Source: a virus. Taken from it: a DNA stretch of 40,026 bases. Under the pieces are notes generated by a model. It made no database searches. It was not told the origin of the DNA and worked only from the letters and a program-made list of their open reading frames with translations. Each line of letters begins with the position of its first letter. Position 1 is the first letter of the stretch. Where the stretch lies: the IMG/VR virus record IMGVR_UViG_3300010371_000066, positions 1-40,026 of that record. One strand, given 5' to 3'. Below are positions 1,012 through 40,026 of the stretch, piece by piece. The position numbers and the translations under genes are program-made.

Positions 1012-1289
1012 ATTGGCCTACGCCTGCAGGGTTGAAAGCAGGAGGTCCGCGCCCGTGCCTCTGGTGCGAGCAAGACCTCGCGCTTGTCGGAAAAGGGCTC
1101 CCGTATTGCGCGGGCTGCTGGGCCGCCCGGAATCCGCGCAAGTACGAGCCCACAGCGCAGGAGCAGGCAGATCACGAGCTCGAAGAAGAGCGGATGTTCG
1201 CGGAAGACCACTCTTGGGAGTCGGACAACGGCGATCTGAATGAAGGTCGCGCGGTCGGGCCGGTGCCCGGCTACTTCGACAAATGGTGA
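1008..1289 (+). CDS. Small zinc-ribbon-like protein, 93 aa
   Basis: GTG at 1008 overlaps the previous stop. Residues about 17-38 hold CLWC and CAGC pairs spaced like a zinc ribbon, followed by an acidic C-terminal half rich in Glu and Asp. It directly precedes the Erf-like recombinase, so a DNA-metabolism role is possible, but nothing in the sequence proves it. Confidence 0.65.
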   Translation: MNWPTPAGLKAGGPRPCLWCEQDLALVGKGLPYCAGCWAARNPRKYEPTAQEQADHELEEERMFAEDHSWESDNGDLNEGRAVGPVPGYFDKW

Positions 1290-1293
1290 GCCA

Positions 1294-2016
1294 ATGACCA
1301 CGGCGCTAAAGGCCGCAGAGCCGCCCAGGCAGGAAGAGAAGAAGCCCGAGTTGTTGTCGATTGCGAAGGCGATCCCGCTCATCATCGGCGCGATCCCGCC
1401 CATCACGAAGAACCGGAAGAACGAACAGCAGCACTACAACTTCCGTGGCATCGACGACGTGTACGCCGCGCTCAATCTGCTGCTGGCGAAGTATGGCGTC
1501 TCGATCCTGCCCGAAGTGCTCGAATCGAAGCACGAGGCGGCGGGCACGACCAAGAGTGGGACCACGATGTGGCGGCACTACATCCGCGTCCGATACCACC
1601 TGATCGCCTCGGATGGCTCCACGCTCAAGGCCGACAGCGAAGGCGAGGGAATGGATACCGGAGACAAGGCCACGCCCAAGGCCTTCTCGACGGCATTCAA
1701 GACGATGGCCTTCCAGGTGTTCTGCATTCCGACCGGCGAGAAGGTGGACTCGGAAGAGGACTCGCCCGAGGTGGTTGCGCCAAAACAGGAGCGCAACAAG
1801 GACGAGCCGATCTGGAAGCAGGTCGTGGTCGTGGCGAAAGAGTACGGCTTCGATTGCGGCGAAGGAAACAAGGCCCTGTGGGCTCTCGCCGCCACCGTCA
1901 CCAAGACGCCCGCGCCGAAGTGGACTGAAGAGGACTTCAAGCTGATCGAGCAGGCGCTGGCCTCTGCCGTGTCGGGCCGGAAGCCCGGCGAGCCCGAGTC
2001 GGACATCCCGTTCTAG
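1294..2016 (+). CDS. erf: Erf-family single-strand annealing protein
   Basis: A 240-aa protein starting at ATG 1294, just after the preceding stop at 1287-1289; the ORF is also open from an upstream ATG at 1240, which would overlap that gene. The core HYNFRGIDDVYAALNLLLAK and the later GDKATPKAFSTAFKTM are typical of the ERF superfamily of phage annealing proteins. These bind single-stranded DNA and pair complementary strands, often to circularise or recombine phage genomes. The length fits the family. After a variable linker the protein ends in an acidic stretch closing with ESDIPF, very like the C-terminal tip of bacterial SSB (DDDIPF). No partner exonuclease or phage SSB was seen nearby. 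The position in the rightward operon matches the recombination genes of lambda PL or P22. Confidence 0.88.
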   Translation: MTTALKAAEPPRQEEKKPELLSIAKAIPLIIGAIPPITKNRKNEQQHYNFRGIDDVYAALNLLLAKYGVSILPEVLESKHEAAGTTKSGTTMWRHYIRVRYHLIASDGSTLKADSEGEGMDTGDKATPKAFSTAFKTMAFQVFCIPTGEKVDSEEDSPEVVAPKQERNKDEPIWKQVVVVAKEYGFDCGEGNKALWALAATVTKTPAPKWTEEDFKLIEQALASAVSGRKPGEPESDIPF

Positions 2017-4983: not shown

Positions 4984-5972
4984 TGGGCTACCCGACCGAT
5001 CAGGACTTTGAAGAGGCGCGACGGCACCGGACGCCACCGGCCCAGCGTTCGCCGGAGCCGCTGACGCTGGCGGCGCTCCGAGCAGCGAACGCCGTTCGGC
5101 AGAAGGAGTGGGATCGCGGTGACGTGATCACGCTGGAGTATCGCGGCAACGAGCTTGCCGGAGAGGTGGGCGAGGCATGCAACGTCGTGAAGAAGCTCGC
5201 GCGCGAACGCCTCGGTATCCGTGGCTCGCGGGCCACGGCGCAGCAACTCGCGGAGGAATTGGCCGACGTGATGATCTGCGTCGATCTGGTGGCGATGCAT
5301 GCGGGCATCGACCTCGCCGCCGCCGTGGTCGCCAAGTTCAACCTGACCTCCGAAAAGAACGGGCTCGCCACGCGGCTCCCCTTCCTCGAAAAGCAGCCCT
5401 CTCCCTCTCCTCACCCTGAGGTGCCGACGCGGTGCCCGTACTGCGAAGCCAGGCCGTTCGAGGTGATCGACGGCTCCGAAGAGGTGGCCTTCATGCAGTG
5501 TCAGAACTGCAAGGCCAAGTGGCCAGTGCCCGCCCGCCCCGAGGTGCAGAGCGAGGACAGCGCATTCAAGGAGGGGGCGGAGGCGATGCGCGAGGCGGCG
5601 GTGAAGGCCGCGAGGGCGCACGGTGCGCTGCACGCCATCGACGATAAGGTGTGGGCGCGCGACTGCTCGACGCAAATCGAGTCGGACATCCGCTCGCTCC
5701 CCCTTCCTGAAAAGCCCTCTCCCGCGAGCGAGGACAGCAAGAGCGCGAGGTGGGGCCGCTCTGCTGACACGACGGTCTGGCATCGCTGGCTTCCGGGGAA
5801 GGTGGGCGACCGCGTGCGCTACACGGTCTGCGACGGCGAGGCGAGCGGATATTTCCCGGGTGAGCGTCCGCCGGGGAGCCCTCCGTTGGGAAGCAAGATT
5901 TGCGATGGCTGTCTCGCGTCGGAATTGGCACCGCGGGACAGCAAGAGCGCGGGCAGGGAAGGTGGGAAATGA
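4983..5972 (+). CDS. MazG-like nucleotide pyrophosphohydrolase with zinc ribbon
   Basis: A 329-aa protein from ATG 4983. Residues 35-120 match the MazG/all-alpha NTP pyrophosphatase pattern: NELAGEVGEACNVVKK supplies the E-x2-E pair (E61, E64) and EELADVMICVDLVA the second acidic pair (E92, D95). Such enzymes hydrolyse nucleoside triphosphates, including damaged ones or alarmone-linked pools. About residues 147-175 hold CPYC and CQNC, a zinc ribbon. A second Cys pair lies near the C terminus (CDGC). The long tail contains the dispersed EVQSEDSA linker. The MazG part alone is normally ~100 aa, so this is a fusion with extra unknown domains. Confidence 0.75.
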   Translation: MGYPTDQDFEEARRHRTPPAQRSPEPLTLAALRAANAVRQKEWDRGDVITLEYRGNELAGEVGEACNVVKKLARERLGIRGSRATAQQLAEELADVMICVDLVAMHAGIDLAAAVVAKFNLTSEKNGLATRLPFLEKQPSPSPHPEVPTRCPYCEARPFEVIDGSEEVAFMQCQNCKAKWPVPARPEVQSEDSAFKEGAEAMREAAVKAARAHGALHAIDDKVWARDCSTQIESDIRSLPLPEKPSPASEDSKSARWGRSADTTVWHRWLPGKVGDRVRYTVCDGEASGYFPGERPPGSPPLGSKICDGCLASELAPRDSKSAGREGGK

Positions 5973-6229
5973 GCGAGCGCATCGGATTCGCGGTTTTTTC
6001 GCCAACAACCGGCAAGTACGTTCAGCACCCCACCGGAAGCGGCATCGGCTGGTCGCGGAGCCGCGAAGAAGCCGAAGAAGTCGCGCGGACGTGGGGGTTC
6101 GATGGCGCGGTCGTGGACGCCGAGGACTTCGCTGCGCATTGGTACACCTACGTCCAGACGGCAGCACTCGGCGGCGTCATGCCGATGGAGACGGCGCGCA
6201 AGTTTCTGCCGCCCGAGGCGCTGCAATGA
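5969..6229 (+). CDS. Hypothetical protein, 86 aa
   Basis: ATG at 5969 overlaps the previous stop, with GGAAGGTGGG just upstream as ribosome-binding site. The protein MSERIGFAVFSPTTGKYVQ... looks like a small alpha/beta domain. It is not assigned to a family. The stop overlaps the next ATG. Confidence 0.65.
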   Translation: MSERIGFAVFSPTTGKYVQHPTGSGIGWSRSREEAEEVARTWGFDGAVVDAEDFAAHWYTYVQTAALGGVMPMETARKFLPPEALQ

Positions 6230-6561
6230 GGGCCAAAAAAAAGCTTTCGAGGGTGGACCAACTCGAACGAGCGCTGAGCGTGTTTTGCTGCTTTCACGTC
6301 GCCGTCTCGCGCGCTCTGGACGAGGGCACGGGCGACGGCGACTGCCACCTTGACAAGTGGATTTGTTCGCTTGGCGCGGCGGCGGACCGATCTCTGCGCG
6401 GCCTCTCGCCCATCCGCCCGAAGAACATCTCCAAGCACTGGAAGCAACTGCACCGCCGAGAAAAGGAAATGTTCGAGCCGAGCGCGGATGAGCCGCGCGC
6501 AGCGCCCGCCGCCCCCGAGGTGCAGAGCGAGGACAGCGCAGGCAAGGAAGGTGAAAAATGA
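6226..6561 (+). CDS. Hypothetical protein, 111 aa
   Basis: ATG at 6226 (ATGA overlap). The N terminus is basic (MRAKKKLSRV), then comes a helical region with three Cys residues, and a C-terminal tail carrying the peptide APEVQSEDSAGKEGEK. The DNA for that tail shares 28 identical bases (6513-6540) with the MazG-like gene (5537-5564). Function unknown. Confidence 0.6.
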   Translation: MRAKKKLSRVDQLERALSVFCCFHVAVSRALDEGTGDGDCHLDKWICSLGAAADRSLRGLSPIRPKNISKHWKQLHRREKEMFEPSADEPRAAPAAPEVQSEDSAGKEGEK

Positions 6562-6794
6562 AGGCCAAGGGTTTTCTGGTGAAGTTCACGATTCTCCTGC
6601 CCGTTCGGTCAGCCTGGGAGGAGCGGATCCCGCGGCCCGTGAGCGACGAAGCCATCGCCGCGGCGGTGAAGAGGCGCAAGGTCCTCGCCGGTAAGCGGCC
6701 CCGCGCCGCGAGCACCACCGACTACGGAGGCACCATCAGCGCTGGCCATGACGTGGTTGGCAGCTACTTCATCGTGCCGGACAGCGAGACATGA
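6558..6794 (+). CDS. Hypothetical protein, 78 aa
   Basis: ATG at 6558 overlaps the upstream stop, with GGAAGG as ribosome-binding site. The small basic protein contains VKFTILLPVRSAWEERI and ends GSYFIVPDSET. No family is recognised. It is followed by a 79-base gap that holds a C-rich run. Confidence 0.6.
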   Translation: MKAKGFLVKFTILLPVRSAWEERIPRPVSDEAIAAAVKRRKVLAGKRPRAASTTDYGGTISAGHDVVGSYFIVPDSET

Positions 6795-6873
6795 CTTCCT
6801 CGGACTGCCCTGCTGAAATTCAGGACAGGCCCCCCGCCCCCCCCCGCGCTGCGCCCTGACATGAAGGAGCCGA

Positions 6874-7224
6874 ATGGAAAATAAATCAGAAGGCGGGGCT
6901 CCACCCCGCGCCCCGCGCGTGTCTCGGACCGGAGATTTCGACGGATGCGGCAGCATGCTCTACGTCGTGGGGACCACGCAATACGTGCTGCGCATGGAGA
7001 GCGATTTCATGCTCGTCAACGCGCCCGAATGGATGGACCTGAAGATTGCGCGCCGCGTGCTGGCCGCGCTGAAGGAGGCCATCCGAGACGCCGAGAGGGA
7101 AGAGGCCGAAGGCCGCGAGCGGAGCGAGCCCCCTGAACCCACCCCCGCCCCCACCAGCAGCAGCGACAGCAAGGGAGGCGACAGCCCCGCCCCTCGCTCA
7201 CCTACACCGAGGGAGGGCGAGTAG
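6874..7224 (+). CDS. Hypothetical protein, 116 aa
   Basis: ATG at 6874 has AAGGAG eight bases upstream. The middle (SMLYVVGTTQYVLRMESDFMLVN...IARRVLAALKEAI) looks like a small folded domain. The C-terminal third is a Pro/Ser/Glu linker (TPAPTSSSDSKGGDSPAP) of the type repeated in neighbouring genes. The stop abuts the next ATG directly. Function unknown. Confidence 0.6.
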   Translation: MENKSEGGAPPRAPRVSRTGDFDGCGSMLYVVGTTQYVLRMESDFMLVNAPEWMDLKIARRVLAALKEAIRDAEREEAEGRERSEPPEPTPAPTSSSDSKGGDSPAPRSPTPREGE

Positions 7225-7860
7225 ATGATCGCTGCGCTCTACGTCCAGAAAAACGGCTGCTATTCAGGGATGGCAGACGTTGACACATGGGACCAGGAGC
7301 GCGATGCGCGGCTCTACGATGGGCCTTGGCCGGTCGTGGCTCACCCCCCATGCCAGCGGTGGAGCAAGTTCTACTTCGGAAGCCCCGCGAAGGTGGCGGC
7401 GGGGCACGCCAGGCTTGCGAAGGGCGACGACGGCGGGTGCTTTGCTGCGGCCCTGGCTGCCGTGCGGAAGTGGGGCGGTGTCCTTGAGCATCCCGCGCGC
7501 TCGCACGCGTGGCGGCACTTCGGGCTGATTGCGCCGCCGTCGAGTGGCGGATGGGTGGCGGCGGGCGACGGCATCGGCTGGACGTGCCGTGTTGACCAGA
7601 GCTGCTACGGCCACCGCGCGCAGAAGCCGACGTGGCTCTATGCCGTGCGCTGCAAGCTGCCTTCGTTGAACTGGAAGCGGGAGAAGCGACCGGACCCCGA
7701 TGGGCGCAGCCGGCGCGGCATCCTGGCTTTGATGGACCACCGCGAACGGGACGCAACCCCGCCAGCGTTTCGGGATTTGCTCTTGTCTTTGGCGAGCACA
7801 GCGAGCGCGCCGAAGGCGCGCACTGAATTCCCTGCACCGAGGGAGGAACACGACACATGA
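7225..7860 (+). CDS. PPC-motif DNA methylase-like protein, 211 aa
   Basis: ATG at 7225 directly follows the previous stop. The protein has VVAHPPCQRW (residues 37-46) and GGVLEHPARS (84-93), spaced like motifs IV (PPC) and VI (ENV) of cytosine-5 methyltransferases. It lacks an obvious N-terminal SAM-binding FxGxG motif and has EHP instead of ENV. Similar phage proteins are usually annotated as hypothetical or Dcm-like (recalled). It could be a minimal or inactive methylase, or another enzyme that reuses the PPC loop on a pyrimidine base. It lies in the early operon, so an effect on DNA base modification is plausible but unproven. Confidence 0.55.
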   Translation: MIAALYVQKNGCYSGMADVDTWDQERDARLYDGPWPVVAHPPCQRWSKFYFGSPAKVAAGHARLAKGDDGGCFAAALAAVRKWGGVLEHPARSHAWRHFGLIAPPSSGGWVAAGDGIGWTCRVDQSCYGHRAQKPTWLYAVRCKLPSLNWKREKRPDPDGRSRRGILALMDHRERDATPPAFRDLLLSLASTASAPKARTEFPAPREEHDT

Positions 7861-8350: not shown

Positions 8351-8782
8351 GTGTCCTCTCCTGCTGCTGCTAGAGAGCATTGCGCTGGCCCCTGGTTCTG
8401 TGAGGGCTGTGCGGCACGCTACTGCGGCGGCGTTTCCGTGAAGAGCTTCAGGAGGCATTTGCGCCCACTGACAGATCCGTCGTATGTGGGCGATCTCCCG
8501 CGCTGGCACAAATCCGACCTCGACAGCGCCATGCGGCAGAGCAGGAGGGGATCTTGGGGGGCAAACGAGCAGCGTTCCACGTCAAGGCCCGCGCCGGAAG
8601 TCCCTTCTGGCAGTTCCACTGCACAATCGACGGACAGCCCATCCGCGAAGCCCTCAACGTCACGATCGCGGAAGACCCGAACAAAAGAAAGGCTGGCCGA
8701 GAAGCTGCGGCGCGCTACCTCCACCACTGTGCCCGCCTCGGCTCAAAGCCTGCGCCTGTTGCCGTCGAACAAGACACCATGA
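8351..8782 (+). CDS. Doubtful ORF upstream of and overlapping integrase
   Basis: GTG at 8351 opens a 143-codon frame. Its first ~65 codons (Cys pattern CAGPWFCEGCAARYCGG, then PLTDPSYVGDLPRW) look protein-like. The rest overlaps the integrase by 229 bases in another frame and reads as low-complexity Ser/Arg. Either the true gene was truncated by a frameshift near 8550 or only the upstream part once coded. An excisionase would be expected near here, but no excisionase motif is visible. Confidence 0.3.
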   Translation: MSSPAAAREHCAGPWFCEGCAARYCGGVSVKSFRRHLRPLTDPSYVGDLPRWHKSDLDSAMRQSRRGSWGANEQRSTSRPAPEVPSGSSTAQSTDSPSAKPSTSRSRKTRTKERLAEKLRRATSTTVPASAQSLRLLPSNKTP

Positions 8783-9627
8783 CGCTGCTCGAGCAGTACG
8801 TGGATACAGATCTTGCCGCCCGAGCGCGCAAGCGGGGCCCGCGCTACGCCGAGATCGAGGAAACGCGGCTGGTCAAGTACGTGGTGCCGAGATTCCCGCT
8901 GATCAGCATGATCACCCGTCAGACATGGGAAGAGGCGCAAGGGACCATGCGCGGCGTAAAGTTGAGCACAATTCAGCGCGTCACGGTCAGCCTGCGGCTG
9001 TTCCTGCGCTATTGCGTGCGCATTGGGGCGATTCTGGCCCTGCCCATGCTCACCGCACCGTCAGGGACGGAGGCCGCAGCGGATGCGAGCCAAAGGCGGG
9101 CTTTCACGGAAGGGGAGCGGGATCGGTTTCTGCGGGAGGTCCGCAAGTTGAATGCCCGAGCTGGCCGAGTCTACACCGCCCTGCTCTACACCGCATTGCG
9201 CAAGGGGGCGCTGGAGAAGATGCTGCCGGGGTGGATCGACTGGCGCGCCAACCGCGTTACCTTCCCGCCCGGCACCCTCAAGAGCCGCAAGGCCCGCTCG
9301 TTCTGGCTGCACCCGCTGGCGCGCAAGGCCATCAAGGCAGAGATGGGGTTTCGGCGAAACAACTTGCCCGTGTTTGGACGATTCGACTACGACTCCCACA
9401 ACGAGCGCTCAGGCCTCTTCTGGACAGCCTGCAGGCGTGCGCGCATCCCCTTCGATGGCCTGACAGCCCACCACGTCACGCGGCACACAGCCTGCACCAT
9501 CGCAGGCAACAACGGGGCCACCCTGGCCGAATTGATGGCGCTCGGAGGATGGGATACACCGGCAATGGCTATGCGTTATTTGCACTTGGACGCACAGCAA
9601 GGAAGGAAGGCGGTCGAACGGCTTTGA
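8554..9627 (+). CDS. int: Tyrosine integrase
   Basis: A 357-aa site-specific recombinase that would integrate and excise the prophage. The start is TTG at 8554, five bases after AGGAGG (8543-8548), and no in-frame ATG is as well placed. The catalytic set is visible: R216 in TALRKGAL, K243 in TLKSRKAR, H307-x2-R310 in HHVTRHT, W333 in LGGW, and nucleophile Y342 in MRYLHL. Residues ~75-165 form the core-binding domain. A basic N-terminal region of about 60 residues would bind arm sites. It lies at the end of the rightward operon, directly upstream of the candidate attP, as in lambda-type phages. No serine-recombinase features are present. Confidence 0.93.
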   Translation: MGGKRAAFHVKARAGSPFWQFHCTIDGQPIREALNVTIAEDPNKRKAGREAAARYLHHCARLGSKPAPVAVEQDTMTLLEQYVDTDLAARARKRGPRYAEIEETRLVKYVVPRFPLISMITRQTWEEAQGTMRGVKLSTIQRVTVSLRLFLRYCVRIGAILALPMLTAPSGTEAAADASQRRAFTEGERDRFLREVRKLNARAGRVYTALLYTALRKGALEKMLPGWIDWRANRVTFPPGTLKSRKARSFWLHPLARKAIKAEMGFRRNNLPVFGRFDYDSHNERSGLFWTACRRARIPFDGLTAHHVTRHTACTIAGNNGATLAELMALGGWDTPAMAMRYLHLDAQQGRKAVERL

Positions 9628-21394: not shown

Positions 21395-22396
21395 TTAAAC
21401 CGTGGTGGCGAGAACGCGGCCGTTAAACTGCGCGCCGCTGACAGTGAGGGCACCCGCCCATGCCAAAATGGCGACTTCCGCATCCTGATTCACCGCGTAC
21501 CGGCGGTCCGGGCTGAGCGGCACGAAGTTGCGGTCCTTGTGAGGACGGAACTTCAGATACTTGCTGTTCAGCAGATAGAACGTGCCATGAGTGCTCGACG
21601 CGTCACCGGCAAAGCCGCCGATGCCTCCGTCGAGGTACACGTCAGCATTCATGTATTGGATGGTCTGGAATCCGAGGTCGGCCTTCTTGGCATCGGTGAA
21701 CCGCTGGATGTTCTGGAGCGAGGCCATGAAGTCCGCCCAGAAGTTGTTGTCCATGATGCCGAAGTCCGGCCGGTCACTTCCTCGGATGGTGGTCGCCCAC
21801 AGCGCGTTCATGACCGCCTGACACTTCGCGGAAGTCGAGATGTCAGCCGTGGTGCTGGTGCACTGAGAGCGCCAGAAGGGGAACGTGGTGCGCGAGATGC
21901 CGCCGTAGGTGCTCGACTGGCTGGAGGTCACCGTCGCCTCAACAGCCGCATCGAGGCCTACGATGGCCTTGCCGTTGAAGATGGTGCCGTCGGAGTAGCA
22001 ACCCTGAGTGATGATGTTCGCCAGCGTGGCTTCCGCCACACCGAGGCGCGCATCCATCAGGTCAAGGATCTTCTCCTTGCCGTCGTTCTGCAGCTTTTCG
22101 AGCCCGCTGATCGTGACCGGCACGGCAGCCTGCTTGAGGCTGTACTGCGCAGCGGAGATCACGTCCTGCGCCGCGACGGGCAACAGGTCGTATCCGCTGT
22201 AATAGCTCGCGTTGCCGTTCTGGGCGAACGACAGCTCTTCGAGGATGGTGTTACCGCCCGAGATGGGCAGCACCCGACCCTTTTCTTTCAGGTGGGTGAG
22301 CAGCGCATTGTTCTTGGTGACGTTATCGGCAATCTTGCGCCGACGAGACTCGATTGCGCCGACGATGACGTCGGTCGTACTGGTAGGGAAAGCCAA
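21395..22396 (-). CDS. Major capsid protein
   Basis: 333 aa. TTG at 22396 follows CGGAGG by six bases; the frame is open a little further upstream but without a better start. N terminus MAFPTSTTDVIVGAIESRRRKIADNVTKNNALLTHLKEKG, then EELSFAQNGNASYYSGYDLLPV. Size, position after scaffold and before decoration protein, and the closing FVPLSPDRRYAVNQDAEVAI support an HK97-fold-type coat protein of the podovirus kind. Confidence 0.85.
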   Translation of the reverse strand: MAFPTSTTDVIVGAIESRRRKIADNVTKNNALLTHLKEKGRVLPISGGNTILEELSFAQNGNASYYSGYDLLPVAAQDVISAAQYSLKQAAVPVTISGLEKLQNDGKEKILDLMDARLGVAEATLANIITQGCYSDGTIFNGKAIVGLDAAVEATVTSSQSSTYGGISRTTFPFWRSQCTSTTADISTSAKCQAVMNALWATTIRGSDRPDFGIMDNNFWADFMASLQNIQRFTDAKKADLGFQTIQYMNADVYLDGGIGGFAGDASSTHGTFYLLNSKYLKFRPHKDRNFVPLSPDRRYAVNQDAEVAILAWAGALTVSGAQFNGRVLATTV

Positions 22397-34377: not shown

Positions 34378-34995
34378 TCACTCGTCGGCCTTCTCGGCTT
34401 TGTCTTGCCAGTGAGTGACGCGGAGGTCTTCGCCTGAGATGTGCTGCCACCCGACCGGATCTCCGTTAAGTCTGGACGCGATGCGCTGGCCGTATTTGGC
34501 TTTGAATTCCTCGCCGGTGAGATTGGTTGTCACGATGCTGGGCCGCCGATTCGCTTCGCGGTGTTCGAGCACGTCCGTGATGCGCGACGCCGCGTAGCCT
34601 CCGGGGCTGTGCTCAATCCCCACGTCGTCCAGCACCAGGAGTCCAGCGGCTCGCATGCGCTCGTCCAGCGTGGTCTTGCGGACGCCGTATTCATCGGGGT
34701 CCGTGAAGTCTGGCTTGGCGAGGTCGGGGGCGTGAACCCACAGCCCCGCCTGCTTCGACAACGCGTGAGCACATGCCGTGCTTTTGCCGCAGCCAGTGCC
34801 GCCCGACAGCACCGCCAGCACACCATCGCCAGCGAGAATTTTCTGCACGACCCCAAGCGCCAATGTCGGCCGCGCCTCGATGGCGATCCGGTGAAACTTG
34901 CTCGGCACGCCAGCCCAGCGCATCGAGTCTTCCGGGGTCACGATACGCCGTACCCACTCCACTCCCTTTGCATCCGTAAATCGCTCGTATTTCAT
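34378..34995 (-). CDS. DnaC-like helicase loader, AAA+ ATPase
   Basis: 205 aa, ATG 34995. Walker A GGTGCGKST (65-73), Walker B LLVLDDVG (119-126), sensor I TTN (156-158) and Arg residues in GQRIASRLNG. The family loads the host replicative helicase (DnaB) at the origin. Directly downstream of the replication initiator, as with lambda O and P. Confidence 0.8.
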   Translation of the reverse strand: MKYERFTDAKGVEWVRRIVTPEDSMRWAGVPSKFHRIAIEARPTLALGVVQKILAGDGVLAVLSGGTGCGKSTACAHALSKQAGLWVHAPDLAKPDFTDPDEYGVRKTTLDERMRAAGLLVLDDVGIEHSPGGYAASRITDVLEHREANRRPSIVTTNLTGEEFKAKYGQRIASRLNGDPVGWQHISGEDLRVTHWQDKAEKADE

Positions 34996-34998
34996 GGC

Positions 34999-35817
34999 TT
35001 AAAGCACCTTCCTTCCAGGTGTCTCGGACTGCAATTTGTCGCTGACTTGCAGGTGCGCGGTCGGGCGCCGCACGAGCTGCGAGCGCGCGTTTTCCCCTCG
35101 CATCATGCCGATCAAGTACGCCTCGCCCTTCTTCTCGGCGGCGCAGGCGCGGTCCAAATATTCGTTCGCGGCCCGAACGCGTATCTCTGGCGTAAACTGC
35201 CTTGCCCGCATGAGAAAGCCGCGCCATGGGCCTTCCGCCATGGCCCCGCTGGTCCGCGTTGACGCGATGGCTTGATGCACGCGTTCGAGTAGATCCGAAG
35301 GCCAGCCATCTGAAAGCTCCGCCAGTGAAGGCAGCGGCTGAGCCGAAGGCGAAGACGCAGGGAGATCTTTTTCTTCTTTCTGATCTTCTTCTACTTCTGC
35401 TCTAGACGCGTGACGCCCCTGCGTGACATTTGAAGTTGTCACTGGTGACAGTGGTGTCTTGTCACGCGTGACAAGCCCCCTTTTTCGATCTTGCCTGTCA
35501 CGCCACATTGCGCGCTGCTCTTCCAGTGTGACTTCGCCTTGACGCTTGGTGAAGTTGAGCAGGCGAATGGTGCCGTCGGGGTCCAGTTCGACCATTCGCG
35601 CGGCCTGAAAGTGAGTGAGCCCGGTCGCAACCGACTTGCGGGGGATGTTGAAAGCCCCCGACAGTAGCGCCACGTCGTATCCGTGGATTGCGCCGTGGTC
35701 GTCCACCTTCTTTGCCAGGCAAATCAGGCAGGTCCACAGGTGACGAACGGCGATGGGCTGACCGAGGATCTTTCCGTCGGTCGGCATGTCCACATCAACC
35801 TTCGCCCAGATTGGCAT
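34999..35817 (-). CDS. Replication initiator (O-like)
   Basis: 272 aa, ATG 35817. The N-terminal half (IAVRHLWTCLICLAKK...GAFNIPRKSVATGLTHFQAARMVEL) is a winged-helix DNA-binding domain of phage replisome organisers, closing with IRLLNFTKRQ. Residues ~110-165 are a low-complexity linker whose DNA holds GTCAC/GTGAC iterons and an AT/pyrimidine-rich run. The C-terminal domain (WPSDLLERVHQAIAS) likely contacts the loader. The arrangement matches lambda O, whose gene also contains the origin. Confidence 0.8.
   Translation of the reverse strand: MPIWAKVDVDMPTDGKILGQPIAVRHLWTCLICLAKKVDDHGAIHGYDVALLSGAFNIPRKSVATGLTHFQAARMVELDPDGTIRLLNFTKRQGEVTLEEQRAMWRDRQDRKRGLVTRDKTPLSPVTTSNVTQGRHASRAEVEEDQKEEKDLPASSPSAQPLPSLAELSDGWPSDLLERVHQAIASTRTSGAMAEGPWRGFLMRARQFTPEIRVRAANEYLDRACAAEKKGEAYLIGMMRGENARSQLVRRPTAHLQVSDKLQSETPGRKVL
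35369..35503. other. ori: Candidate origin of replication (iterons plus AT-rich run)
   Basis: Within the initiator gene linker: GTGAC/GTCAC cores at about 35410, 35423, 35438, 35445, 35461, 35468 and 35496. These include the perfect 18-bp palindrome CTTGTCACGCGTGACAAG (35458-35475) and TGTCAC-TG-GTGACA (35437-35450). Next to them is an A/T- and pyrimidine-rich stretch 35369-35404, a possible unwinding element. The layout parallels lambda ori inside gene O. Confidence 0.65.
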
Positions 35818-37296: not shown

Positions 37297-37487
37297 TGCC
37301 CACCCCGCTTAATTCGCTCGGTCAACAGTTCCCACGACACATGAAATCTCCTGGCTGTCGGCAGCAGGCCTACTGACGGATTGGCCTTGAAGTACGCCAG
37401 CGCCCGGGTCAGCTTGATCTCCCGCTGCTCTCGCCGGAAAGCCTTCTCGTCCCGAAGGGCGCTTTGCTGTGAAATGGGCTTGGTCAA
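37293..37487 (-). CDS. Small HTH-like protein, 64 aa
   Basis: TTG at 37487 overlaps the preceding stop (TTGA). Basic helices (RREQREIKLTRALAYFKANP) are followed by VGLLPTARRFHVSWELLTERIKR, which reads as a helix-turn-helix. Possibly an accessory regulator. Confidence 0.55.
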   Translation of the reverse strand: MTKPISQQSALRDEKAFRREQREIKLTRALAYFKANPSVGLLPTARRFHVSWELLTERIKRGGQ

Positions 37488-37891
37488 GGCTCGTCTCCGT
37501 CCGCGAAAACATCGTCCGGGAGAGCTGCAGCCTCTTGCTGGATGGCCGTGCCGATCGCGTTGTGCTGCGCGAGCGCGTACTTGAGCCGCCGCAGTTCTTC
37601 GGCCTTGCTCATCAAGCGCGGCGGCCGAACCTCCAGCCCTCGCTTCTCCGCGAAGTGCTGCGCGACCTCGCCCTCGAAGTCGTAGTGCTCTGCCACGTAA
37701 TCAAGCCAGTCGTCAGGCCAGTGCTTCTTCCCCGCCAGCACTTCCGAGACGTGCGCATCGCTCGCGCCCACCTGCGCCGCAAACACCGACTGCTTGGGGC
37801 AGTACTTCTTCAGGATGTCCCGTACGGTTTCCGACAGCGAACGGGTTTTCCGTTGGGCGGGCGGGACCTTGATTGCGAGTTGTCGGCCCAT
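37484..37891 (-). CDS. HTH regulator in CII-like position, 135 aa
   Basis: ATG at 37891 with GAGGGG upstream. SVFAAQVGASDAHVSEVLAGKKHWPDDWLDYVAEHYDFEGE is a helix-turn-helix of XRE/Cro-CII type, followed by helices and an acidic tail. It lies directly behind the terminator downstream of cro, the place of cII in lambdoid phages. A role in activating lysogeny promoters is inferred from position. Confidence 0.6.
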   Translation of the reverse strand: MGRQLAIKVPPAQRKTRSLSETVRDILKKYCPKQSVFAAQVGASDAHVSEVLAGKKHWPDDWLDYVAEHYDFEGEVAQHFAEKRGLEVRPPRLMSKAEELRRLKYALAQHNAIGTAIQQEAAALPDDVFADGDEP

Positions 37892-38000: not shown

Positions 38001-38234
38001 CTACCGCTTGCTATGTCGCTTGATCTTCACCAGCCCCCACGACTCAGCCGGAACAGCGCCGCCGCTTCCAACATGGACCTTGCGCGCCCGATACACGTCG
38101 AGGTTGCGCACCCTACGCATGGCCCGCGTGAGGCATGTGCCATCAACACCGATGCGCCCGGCAAACGCCGTCGCGGACAGTCCGTTCTGATGCAGGTAAT
38201 TGGCGAGGAGCGTCGCGCCATCGATCTCACCCAT
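38001..38234 (-). CDS. Cro-like repressor, 77 aa
   Basis: ATG at 38234 (MGEIDGATLLANYLHQNG). LSATAFAGRIGVDGTCLTRAMRR is a helix-turn-helix of Cro/CI type. If the TTGACA-N18-TACCCT pair on the minus strand (38272-38243) is used, transcription starts within two bases of the ATG, giving a leaderless message. A start at 38279 is open but would lie upstream of that promoter. Divergent from the CI-like gene, first gene of the replication operon. Confidence 0.65.
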   Translation of the reverse strand: MGEIDGATLLANYLHQNGLSATAFAGRIGVDGTCLTRAMRRVRNLDVYRARKVHVGSGGAVPAESWGLVKIKRHSKR

Positions 38235-38247
38235 GGAAGCTAAGGGT

Positions 38248-38280
38248 ACTATGGCATTAGCCACAGTGTCAAGCGCCATA
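38248..38280 (-). promoter_or_regulatory. OR-like operator and leftward promoter
   Basis: An imperfect palindrome between ATGGC and GCCAT (38251-38279), with TTGACA on the minus strand at 38272-38267. It shares ACTATGGCAT, GCCACAG, TGTCAA and GCCATA with the site at 39353-39391 (which is reversed and carries a 4-base insertion). Likely bound by both repressors. Confidence 0.65.
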
Positions 38281-38676
38281 CGTGAGCCCACCGCCACACT
38301 GGACCCCGGATACAAGGCCTACGTGGCGGCTAAACCATATCTTCCCAACGAAATAGACAGGCGCGTCGTGGCCCACCTGAGACGACTCATCGCGGACGGC
38401 AGGTTCTCCAGCCCATACGCGCTAGCCGTGACGGCCAAGTTGGATTCCTCTACGATCTACAAGATGTTCAGCGGCGAGCGCGGGGTCGGAACGGACACGC
38501 TGGTCAAACTGCGCGACAACCTGAAGGTGCAGGCCGACTGGCTATTGGACCCGGTCCCGCAGGAGGAGATGGACGCCGCGATCCGCCCAACAGGGCCGGT
38601 CGAGAGAATTGTTAAGGCCGCCGTGCGGGCACATGCGTCGAAGGGCAGGGCGCGGCCCGCAAAAACAGGGGGTTGA
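38251..38676 (+). CDS. CI-like repressor, 141 aa
   Basis: ATG at 38251 preceded by TAAGGG; ATG 38236 in the same frame is an alternative. FSSPYALAVTAKLDSSTIYKMFSGERGVGTDTLVKLRDNL is an XRE helix-turn-helix. The protein lacks the S24/LexA-type autocleavage domain of lambda CI, so induction is not by RecA-stimulated self-cleavage. The C terminus is basic. It lies between two related operators, as cI does in lambda. Confidence 0.65.
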   Translation: MALATVSSAIREPTATLDPGYKAYVAAKPYLPNEIDRRVVAHLRRLIADGRFSSPYALAVTAKLDSSTIYKMFSGERGVGTDTLVKLRDNLKVQADWLLDPVPQEEMDAAIRPTGPVERIVKAAVRAHASKGRARPAKTGG

Positions 38677-38700
38677 GAGCCGCTGTCGGGGGGATGGTTT

Positions 38701-38731
38701 AGATCCGCTCGCAGTCAACAGGAGCGGATCT
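38701..38731 (+). promoter_or_regulatory. Inverted repeat covering the ribosome-binding site
   Basis: AGATCCGCTC (38701-38710) pairs perfectly with GAGCGGATCT (38722-38731) across an 11-base loop. The 3' arm contains the GGAG of the next gene, so the RNA hairpin would hide its ribosome-binding site. As DNA it could instead be an operator. Confidence 0.6.
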
Positions 38732-38733
38732 CG

Positions 38734-38925
38734 ATGACCCCGGAGAGCAGGCAAGTGGTCGAAATGATCGACAGACAGCCGGTGGAGCTGCGCCAGACGG
38801 TGCGCGACGCCGTGGAGCGGATCGTAAAGGCATGCAGTAAGCCGCCACGCCCAAAGCCGCAGCGCCAGCTTGCTCTTCTCCCGCCAGACAGCAATCTGAT
38901 CGTTGGTCCGTGGGGCAAGACCTAG
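38734..38925 (+). CDS. Hypothetical protein behind repressor, 63 aa
   Basis: ATG at 38734. MTPESRQVVEMIDRQPVELRQTVRDAVERIVK is helical and charged, followed by a basic Pro-rich tail. Located downstream of the CI-like gene in the rex position, so possibly expressed in the lysogen. Function unknown. Confidence 0.55.
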   Translation: MTPESRQVVEMIDRQPVELRQTVRDAVERIVKACSKPPRPKPQRQLALLPPDSNLIVGPWGKT

Positions 38926-39305
38926 CCGCGCGAGCCAGTGAACGTCTCGTGGATTTGGCAACTCGGATAGCCGATCACGGCTGACCCAGAGACGCCCGAT
39001 CCCGAGAACGACGCCGAGATCTGCAGTGTGCCCGTCCCGTTTGAACCGCTAACCTGGCAGGCCCACGTTGCACTGTTGCCGCTGGTGGTGCCGGGGCATG
39101 TCCCGTTTAGACTCGCGATGGCGAGCGTTGCCGACGTGCCCGAAGTCGTTACGGTGAACGAATCCGTGTAGGTCGTTCCGGCCGTCACCCCAGAGCAGCT
39201 GCTCGATGTGACGCTCTCGTGGGCCGCGTAGAGCCCGTCGATCGAGACAGGACCGACACCCCCACCACAGGCGAGCGCCAACGCCAGCAAAACCATTCGT
39301 CGCAT
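38922..39305 (-). CDS. Lipoprotein in the immunity region, 127 aa
   Basis: ATG at 39305 with GGAGGG four bases upstream. MRRMVLLALALACGGG is a lipoprotein signal with lipobox Cys, followed by Ser/Thr/Gly-rich beta sequence with Cys residues (SSSCSG, GTCPGT, WACQVSG, YPSCQIH). The gene runs toward the repressor unit and overlaps the 63-aa gene tail to tail. Its location between repressor and OL-like site suggests prophage expression, e.g. superinfection exclusion at the cell surface. Confidence 0.65.
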   Translation of the reverse strand: MRRMVLLALALACGGGVGPVSIDGLYAAHESVTSSSCSGVTAGTTYTDSFTVTTSGTSATLAIASLNGTCPGTTSGNSATWACQVSGSNGTGTLQISASFSGSGVSGSAVIGYPSCQIHETFTGSRG

Positions 39306-39352
39306 AAGCCCTCCGCGACATAGACGAAATCACTACCCGCGCCACCGCCGCA

Positions 39353-39391
39353 ACTATGGCAGTTGACACATGCTGTGGCGTATGCCATAGT
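39353..39391 (+). promoter_or_regulatory. OL-like operator and rightward early promoter
   Basis: ACTATGGCA (39353-39361) and TGCCATAGT (39383-39391) form perfect 9-bp inverted arms. Between them lie TTGACA (39363-39368) and, after 17 bases, CATAGT as -10 (39386-39391). The sequence is homologous to 38248-38280 in reverse. It drives the pentapeptide-repeat gene at 39510 and the long early operon. Confidence 0.75.
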
Positions 39392-39509
39392 CTCCCTTGT
39401 CAGGCGGTGGCTAGGTGGGGCGTCGGGCGGGACATGGTGCAAGCGGACCGGGCTGGAAGTTAAGGGCGGGGCCACCAAGAAGGCTTTTCAAAGAAGGGGG
39501 CGGAAAACC

Positions 39510-40026
39510 GTGACGCGGGAGAGCTATACGAAAGACCAGATCGCAGAGATCCTTGCGTTGCACGGCAAGTGGATGCGCGGTGAGAACGGAGGATCCCGCG
39601 CGAACCTCTCCCGCGCGAACCTCTCCCGCGCGGACCTCTCCCGCGCGGACCTCTCCCGCGCGTACCTCTCCTGCGCGGACCTCTCCCGCGCGTACCTCTC
39701 CCGCGCGAACCTCTCCCGCGCGAACCTCTCCGGCGCGGACCTCTCCTGCGCGAACCTCTCCCGCGCGGACCTCTCCCGCGCGGACCTCTACGGCGCGGAC
39801 CTCTACGGCGCGGACCTCTCCGACGCGAACCTCTCCCGCGCGGACCTCTACGGCGCGGACCTCTCCGACGCGAACCTCTCCTGCGCGAACCTCTCCGGCG
39901 CGAACCTCTCCGGCGCGGACCTCTCCGGCGCGGACCTCTCCGGCGCGAACCTCTCCGACGCGTACCTCTCCGGCGCGGACCTCTCCGGCGCGAACCTCTC
40001 CGGCGCGAACCCCTCCGGCGCGAACC
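39510..40026 (+). CDS. Pentapeptide-repeat protein, N-terminal part
   Basis: GTG at 39510, ten bases after AGAAGGGGG. The first ~28 residues ([20 protein letters not shown]...) match the usual N-terminal lead of phage pentapeptide-repeat proteins. From 39594 about 29 units of A-[NDY]-L-[SY]-[RGCD] follow to the window end and continue at base 66. First gene of the OL-controlled operon. The folded solenoid may mimic DNA, as in Qnr/MfpA proteins that act on gyrase; that function is inference. Confidence 0.85.
39594..40026 (+). repeat. 15-bp tandem repeat array (pentapeptide coding), right end
   Basis: About 29 near-identical 15-base units. Variation is mainly at the codons for the first, fourth and fifth residues (R, G, C or D; S or Y). 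The homogeneity at DNA level suggests recent expansion or frequent recombination, and explains why the assembly was cut here. Confidence 0.9.

Follow-up and report, generated by a model that had tools for sequence, protein, structure and literature searches.

A predicted lambda-like immunity region with two mirrored operator sites in an uncultivated phage

Known switches and the gene order of the region

In phage lambda, the repressor gene is located between two operator clusters and is transcribed divergently from cro, and the operators overlap the opposite early promoters. The cro side leads into CII and the replication genes, the other side into the recombination genes and int. The number of operators per cluster varies among lambda-type switches. 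The type of lysis/lysogeny switch described here is thus already known from phage lambda; the phage carrying it is new.

The analysed stretch (the window) comprised the complete record of the uncultivated virus IMGVR_UViG_3300010371_000066 from IMG/VR, with a length of 40,026 nt. Its nearest named relative by terminase is Myxococcus phage Mx9. Since the final 33 nt of the record reappear at position 67, the record is very probably circular. Its ends split a pentapeptide-repeat gene (39510-40026 plus 1-485), which consists of near-identical 15-bp units followed by a DUF5758 domain; an in-frame stop codon within bases 1-66 suggests that the assembly is wrong there. Relatives for comparison were gathered via the terminase and the Cro family. 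One of them, IMG/VR 3300012922_000004 (G001), has a 65% identical terminase and a 123-nt terminal repeat.

Positions 38248-39391 very likely represent the immunity region of a temperate phage with a lambda-like build (probability about 0.88), the roles of repressor and operators being predicted. This explanation is supported by the uniqueness of the two sites, their 6-N4-6 geometry, the promoter at the left site, the Cro profile, the gene order and the recurrence of the layout in other phages. A gene for a small helix-turn-helix (HTH) protein, termed CI-like here, lies between replication genes on the cro side and recombination and integration genes on the other side. In the cro-side operon, the gene next after cro occupies the CII position and encodes an HTH-like protein without family name (37484-37891, minus strand), which is conserved in G001 (35% identity, 2e-11; 1.7e-13 in a second search). 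It is followed by genes for a methylase, a replisome organiser (34999-35817, minus strand; PF09681, 5.5e-7) and a DnaC-like helicase loader (34378-34995, minus strand; phrog_50, 1.4e-24). The left operon starts with the pentapeptide-repeat gene (39510-40026, plus strand), which continues at 1-485 with the DUF5758 C-terminus, and includes genes for an ERF single-strand annealing protein (1240-2016, plus strand; PF04404, 2.3e-16) and a tyrosine integrase (8554-9627, plus strand; PF00589, 2.8e-9, above the cut-off).

Both the OL-cI-OR-cro layout and the operon contents agree with those of lambda. The differences concern the details. Lambda has three operators of 17-18 bp per cluster, whereas two clear operators of 16 bp, with a weak third at 38283-38298, were found here in much tighter packing (centres 15 or 19 bp apart). 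The lambda repressor is RecA-cleavable and carries a peptidase domain, whereas the repressor candidate of this phage is small and consists of the HTH only. The position of rex is taken by a lipoprotein gene. No homologues of the lambda proteins were found.

In CP-933P, PaaR2 (the analogue of CI) and YdaS (the analogue of Cro) were shown with reporters to repress both PL and PR, so the lambda-like repression logic has a tested precedent (PMC8630535). CP-933P resembles the phage studied here in having a Cro of the YdaS/P22 Cro group, a CI analogue without similarity to lambda, and operators at both PR and PL, but it differs in the sequence and number of the operators, in the toxin-antitoxin genes between CI and PL, and in its leaderless gene, which is the repressor gene and not, as predicted here, cro (PMC8630535). 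The telomere phage PY54 shares with this phage the divergent cI and cro genes of its immB region and a leaderless cro mRNA, which was demonstrated experimentally in PY54 and is predicted here; a single operator was found in PY54 (PMC4488713).

The lipoprotein gene is small and predicted (38922-39305, minus strand; MRRMVLLALALAC...). It is located between the CI-like gene and OL, convergent with the former, and family searches with its product gave no match. Small lipoprotein or membrane-protein genes convergent with CI occupy the same interval in two other phages, L057 (2690-3274, plus strand) and L060 (2009-2272, plus strand), and the proteins of the three phages are mutually unrelated. The interval is a candidate slot for superinfection exclusion or lysogenic conversion.

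Mirrored sites and their division into operators

Site 1 (38248-38283) precedes cro and reads ACTATGGCATTAGCCACAGTGTCAAGCGCCATA on the plus strand. Site 2 (39353-39391) precedes the pentapeptide/erf/int operon and reads ACTATGGCATACGCCACAGCATGTGTCAACTGCCATAGT on the minus strand. The first-pass annotation of this DNA had described the two as homologous sites in opposite orientation that share four short words and differ by an insertion of 4 bases. All four words were recovered in both sites, and the insertion was present; apart from it, the sites are inverted copies of each other. The alignment of site 1 with the reverse complement of site 2 extended over 37-44 columns with a single 4-bp gap.

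Plain inverted-repeat scans of whole genomes were too noisy in GC-rich DNA, and composition-weighted scoring was used instead. The pattern TATGGC-N15..27-GCCATA matched twice in the 40 kb, once at each of these sites, compared to 0.00 expected matches (100 dinucleotide shuffles). The word TGCCATAGT occurs exactly three times in the record, always within the two sites (0.14 expected). Comparison of the pre-cro segment with the upstream 1.2 kb yielded a gapped score of 38 against a maximum of 29 in 300 shuffles; the second-best real location scored 15. It is therefore extremely improbable that the likeness arose by chance or by a recent, functionless duplication. This GC-rich genome does contain many simple inverted repeats of 13-16 nt, but this score exceeds that of every shuffle, the words are unique to the two sites, and the layout recurs in other phages. 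Moreover, the homologous sites precede both early operons and overlap their promoters.

Each site was resolved into two 16-bp quasi-dyad operators of the form TATGGC-N4-GMCACA. Thus, of the single shared operator per site proposed earlier, the shared words are real, but they are better read as parts of two operators each. At OR, operator 1 (38250-38265, plus strand; TATGGCATTAGCCACA) is a 16-mer quasi-dyad with 6-N4-6 spacing that lies nearer to cro, and operator 2 (38265-38280, minus strand; TATGGCGCTTGACACT) contains the -35 box TTGACA of cro. At OL, operator 2 (39355-39370, plus strand; TATGGCAGTTGACACA) contains the -35 box, and operator 1 (39374-39389, minus strand; TATGGCATACGCCACA) overlaps the -10 box. 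The centres of the two operators are 15 bp apart at OR versus 19 bp at OL. Around the common centre, 5-6 of 8 dyad positions pair in three of the four 16-mers and 3 of 8 in the fourth. A tentative third OR operator (38283-38298, minus strand; TGTGGCGGTGGGCTCA) has 3 mismatches and, at a chance rate of about 0.01 per 60 bp, is only suggestive.

Alternatively, each site could form one large operator with an outer palindrome of 31 or 35 bp (TATGGC...GCCATA), in which a repressor tetramer contacts the TATGGC half-sites at both ends and accepts different distances between them. The outer words TATGGC and GCCATA are perfectly conserved in both sites and the inner halves are variable, which fits such an arrangement. 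However, a rigid protein would not accommodate the 4-bp shift in the outer distance, and the 16-mer of G001 (CTTGCATGGTTGCAAG) is itself palindromic with the same 6-N4-6 geometry. A single large operator is therefore considered unlikely, and four dimer sites are favoured over two long palindromes because the 6-N4-6 spacing is constant in all four 16-mers. Outside the immunity region, CGTGGCTTCCGCCACA at 22025-22040 in the structural region is a palindrome similar to the operator consensus, probably by chance. The outer operator pattern also has a match in another genome, G008.

Regulatory proteins and promoters

The Cro-like protein (77 aa; 38001-38234, minus strand) was modelled with AF2 with good confidence (pLDDT 82.6). 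A profile built from this protein and six relatives matched the phage Cro structures 8co2, 8c7k, 3bd1 and 1rzs first, and the AF2 model matched HTH folds of the controller-protein/lambda-repressor type with a probability of 1.00 but weak E-values. By sequence and fold, the protein belongs to the phage Cro (P22 Cro/YdaS) group. Its weak matches in phage records include proteins annotated as Cro-like, among them a homologue in the Paracoccus phage Pthi1 (MK291444; 32% identity, E 0.03). The relatives match PF15943 and PF14549 weakly; the protein alone gave no match against Pfam and NCBIfam. A single-sequence search of viral contigs recovered no homologues; a search with an alignment of three family members recovered L057 and L058.

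The CI-like HTH protein has 117 aa if translation starts at GTG 38323 (38323-38676, plus strand) and 141 aa if it starts at ATG 38251. It matches HTH_3 below the Pfam cut-off (E 0.008) and the transcriptional regulator family phrog_8 (1.4e-4), and at either length comprises an HTH without a peptidase domain. Its AF2 model was poor (pLDDT 47.6). In viral contigs, GTDB genomes and phage records, no close or detectable homologues were found, so the predicted role as repressor rests on genomic context and the HTH. The start at GTG 38323, which is preceded by AAGG, is more likely, since the N-terminus then aligns with that of the CI-like protein of G001 and the operators stay outside the coding region. 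GTG 38323 lies outside site 1, ATG 38251 inside it. With either start, the gene diverges from cro, which begins at ATG 38234 on the minus strand.

The plus-strand HTH gene might not encode the repressor, the sites being recognised only by the Cro-like protein or by the HTH protein encoded at 37484-37891. The weak family support and the lack of detectable homologues of the CI-like protein speak for such an assignment. It is nevertheless judged improbable: in Pthi1 and Mae-JY04, annotated CI genes beside a related cro gene have the position and divergent orientation of this gene, and the N-terminal length and HTH position of the product agree with the G001 protein. Control of both the cro/replication and the pentapeptide/erf/int operons by one repressor, as predicted by the first-pass annotation, is supported by the gene order and the overlap of promoters and operators. 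Membership of the Cro-like protein in the Cro family and the mirrored sites of independent phages, in some of which CI and Cro are annotated, point in the same direction.

The promoter TTGACA-N17-CATAGT proposed for site 2 was confirmed at 39363-39391 on the plus strand. It is PL-like, has TGC directly in front of the -10 box, and would start transcription near 39398. Its -35 box lies within one operator and CATAGT within the other, and it was the only sigma70-like promoter found between 37.0 and 40.0 kb. OL also holds an extended -10 box in reverse orientation (TGCCATAGT, 39361-39353), which could drive the lipoprotein gene.

In site 1, the spacer between TTGACA and CATAGT is 13, as described before. 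The further claim that another -10 box must be used there is probably right, given a distance of 29-33 nt from the -35 box to cro in ten phages, but it is not strictly forced because the extended -10 sequence TGC-CATAGT is also present in site 1 (38256-38248). The distance, counted from the end of the -35 box to the cro start, was within this range in all 10 phages with a recognisable TTGAC or TTGAA box: 32 nt in this phage, 31 in G001, 30 in G005, 29 in L057, 30 in L058, 30 in Pthi1, 29 in Mae-JY35, 30 in G003, 31 in Sc-Yong805-1 and 33 in Mae-JY02. L058 has two possible ATGs, of which the second was taken; the values for this phage and G005 were derived directly from the sequence. Since a spacer of 17-18, a -10 box and 6-8 nt add up to about 30, the cro mRNA should begin at or very near its AUG, and leaderless or near-leaderless cro mRNAs are predicted from the sequences of all ten phages. 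The spacing in this phage thus leads to TACCCT as the putative -10 box, and PR (38243-38272, minus strand) would consist of TTGACA (38272-38267), N18 and TACCCT (38248-38243), followed by 8 nt to the cro ATG. Use of TGC-CATAGT instead would result in a very short cro leader. TACCCT is a weak box, and for the repressor gene no convincing promoter was recognised. Both points count against the lambda-like explanation, as do the sub-cut-off HTH match, the poor model and the missing close homologues of the CI-like protein and the lack of significant mirrored sites in G005 and G003 (see below).

From the observations above we infer binding by the repressor and Cro, repression, an order of occupancy and the transcript starts at OR and OL as follows. 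The HTH protein encoded at 38323-38676 would act as prophage repressor and bind as dimers to one pair of 16-bp operators at OR (38250-38280) and to a second pair at OL (39355-39389). At OL, the repressor would cover the -35 and -10 boxes of PL and switch off the pentapeptide-erf-int operon; at OR, it would cover the -35 box and spacer of PR and switch off cro and the replication genes. During lytic growth, the Cro-like protein may occupy the same sites and lower transcription of the repressor gene and from the early promoters. As OR is 4 bp shorter, CATAGT would be at a non-functional spacing there, and cro would therefore be transcribed from the weaker -10 box just downstream, with an mRNA starting at, or a few nucleotides before, the start codon. 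A temperate lifestyle of this uncultivated phage is supported in this way, and its switch can be assigned probable promoters and operators.

Recurrence of the layout and operator spacing

For each relative, the pre-cro segment was compared with 300 shuffles. Mirrored sites in front of cro and of the left operon were significant (0/300 shuffles each) in G001, L058, Pthi1, Mae-JY35, Sc-Yong805-1 (counted together with the near-identical Nsp-JY21) and Mae-JY02. They were weaker in Mae-JY04 (11/300 shuffles as good) and L057 (45/300), and not significant in G005 and G003. In Mx9, for which an immunity protein is annotated, the scanned part of the record showed no conspicuous mirrored sites. The operator sequences of the relatives with mirrored layout are unrelated to those of this phage. 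A search of viral contigs for the exact operator pattern gave no match.

G001 carries cro on the plus strand, the CI-like gene on the minus strand and mirrored CTTGCA-N4-TGCAAG operators, whose centres are 15 bp (OR) and 19 bp (OL) apart, exactly as in this phage. L058 has GCATGCCTATTGACATGC at both ends, and its operator centres, read from the sequence, are 16 and 19 bp apart. Pthi1 resembles this phage in its related Cro-like protein and small CI-like repressor, with CI and Cro annotated, and in 26-nt mirrored operator sites with TTGAC boxes, but its operator (TCAGGAATATTCCTGA) differs and its two sites are equally spaced. The difference between OR and OL spacing hence amounts to 4 bp in this phage and G001 and to 3 bp in L058, and is recurrent but not universal, since it is absent in Pthi1, L057 and Mae-JY02.

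This asymmetry, which recurs in distantly related phages with unrelated operator sequences, is the less usual part of the switch and possibly meaningful. It is conceivable, if doubtful, that the 4-bp difference has been selected, with the spacing setting the cooperativity or the order of repressor binding at each promoter. Abutting operators with centres 15-16 bp (OR) or 19 bp (OL) apart would place neighbouring dimers at different helix angles. The conserved code would then be the spacing (15/19 in this phage and G001, 16/19 in L058) and not the sequence. Phages with a common layout and unrelated operators provide a comparison set for the effects of operator spacing and of leaderless cro.

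In G005 (L050), divergent TTGACA promoters are located about 50 bp apart at about 5100-5240, with no CI gene between them. Its first right-hand genes (5229-7600) are repeat-rich, with the repeats ADAAA and AWAARDA.
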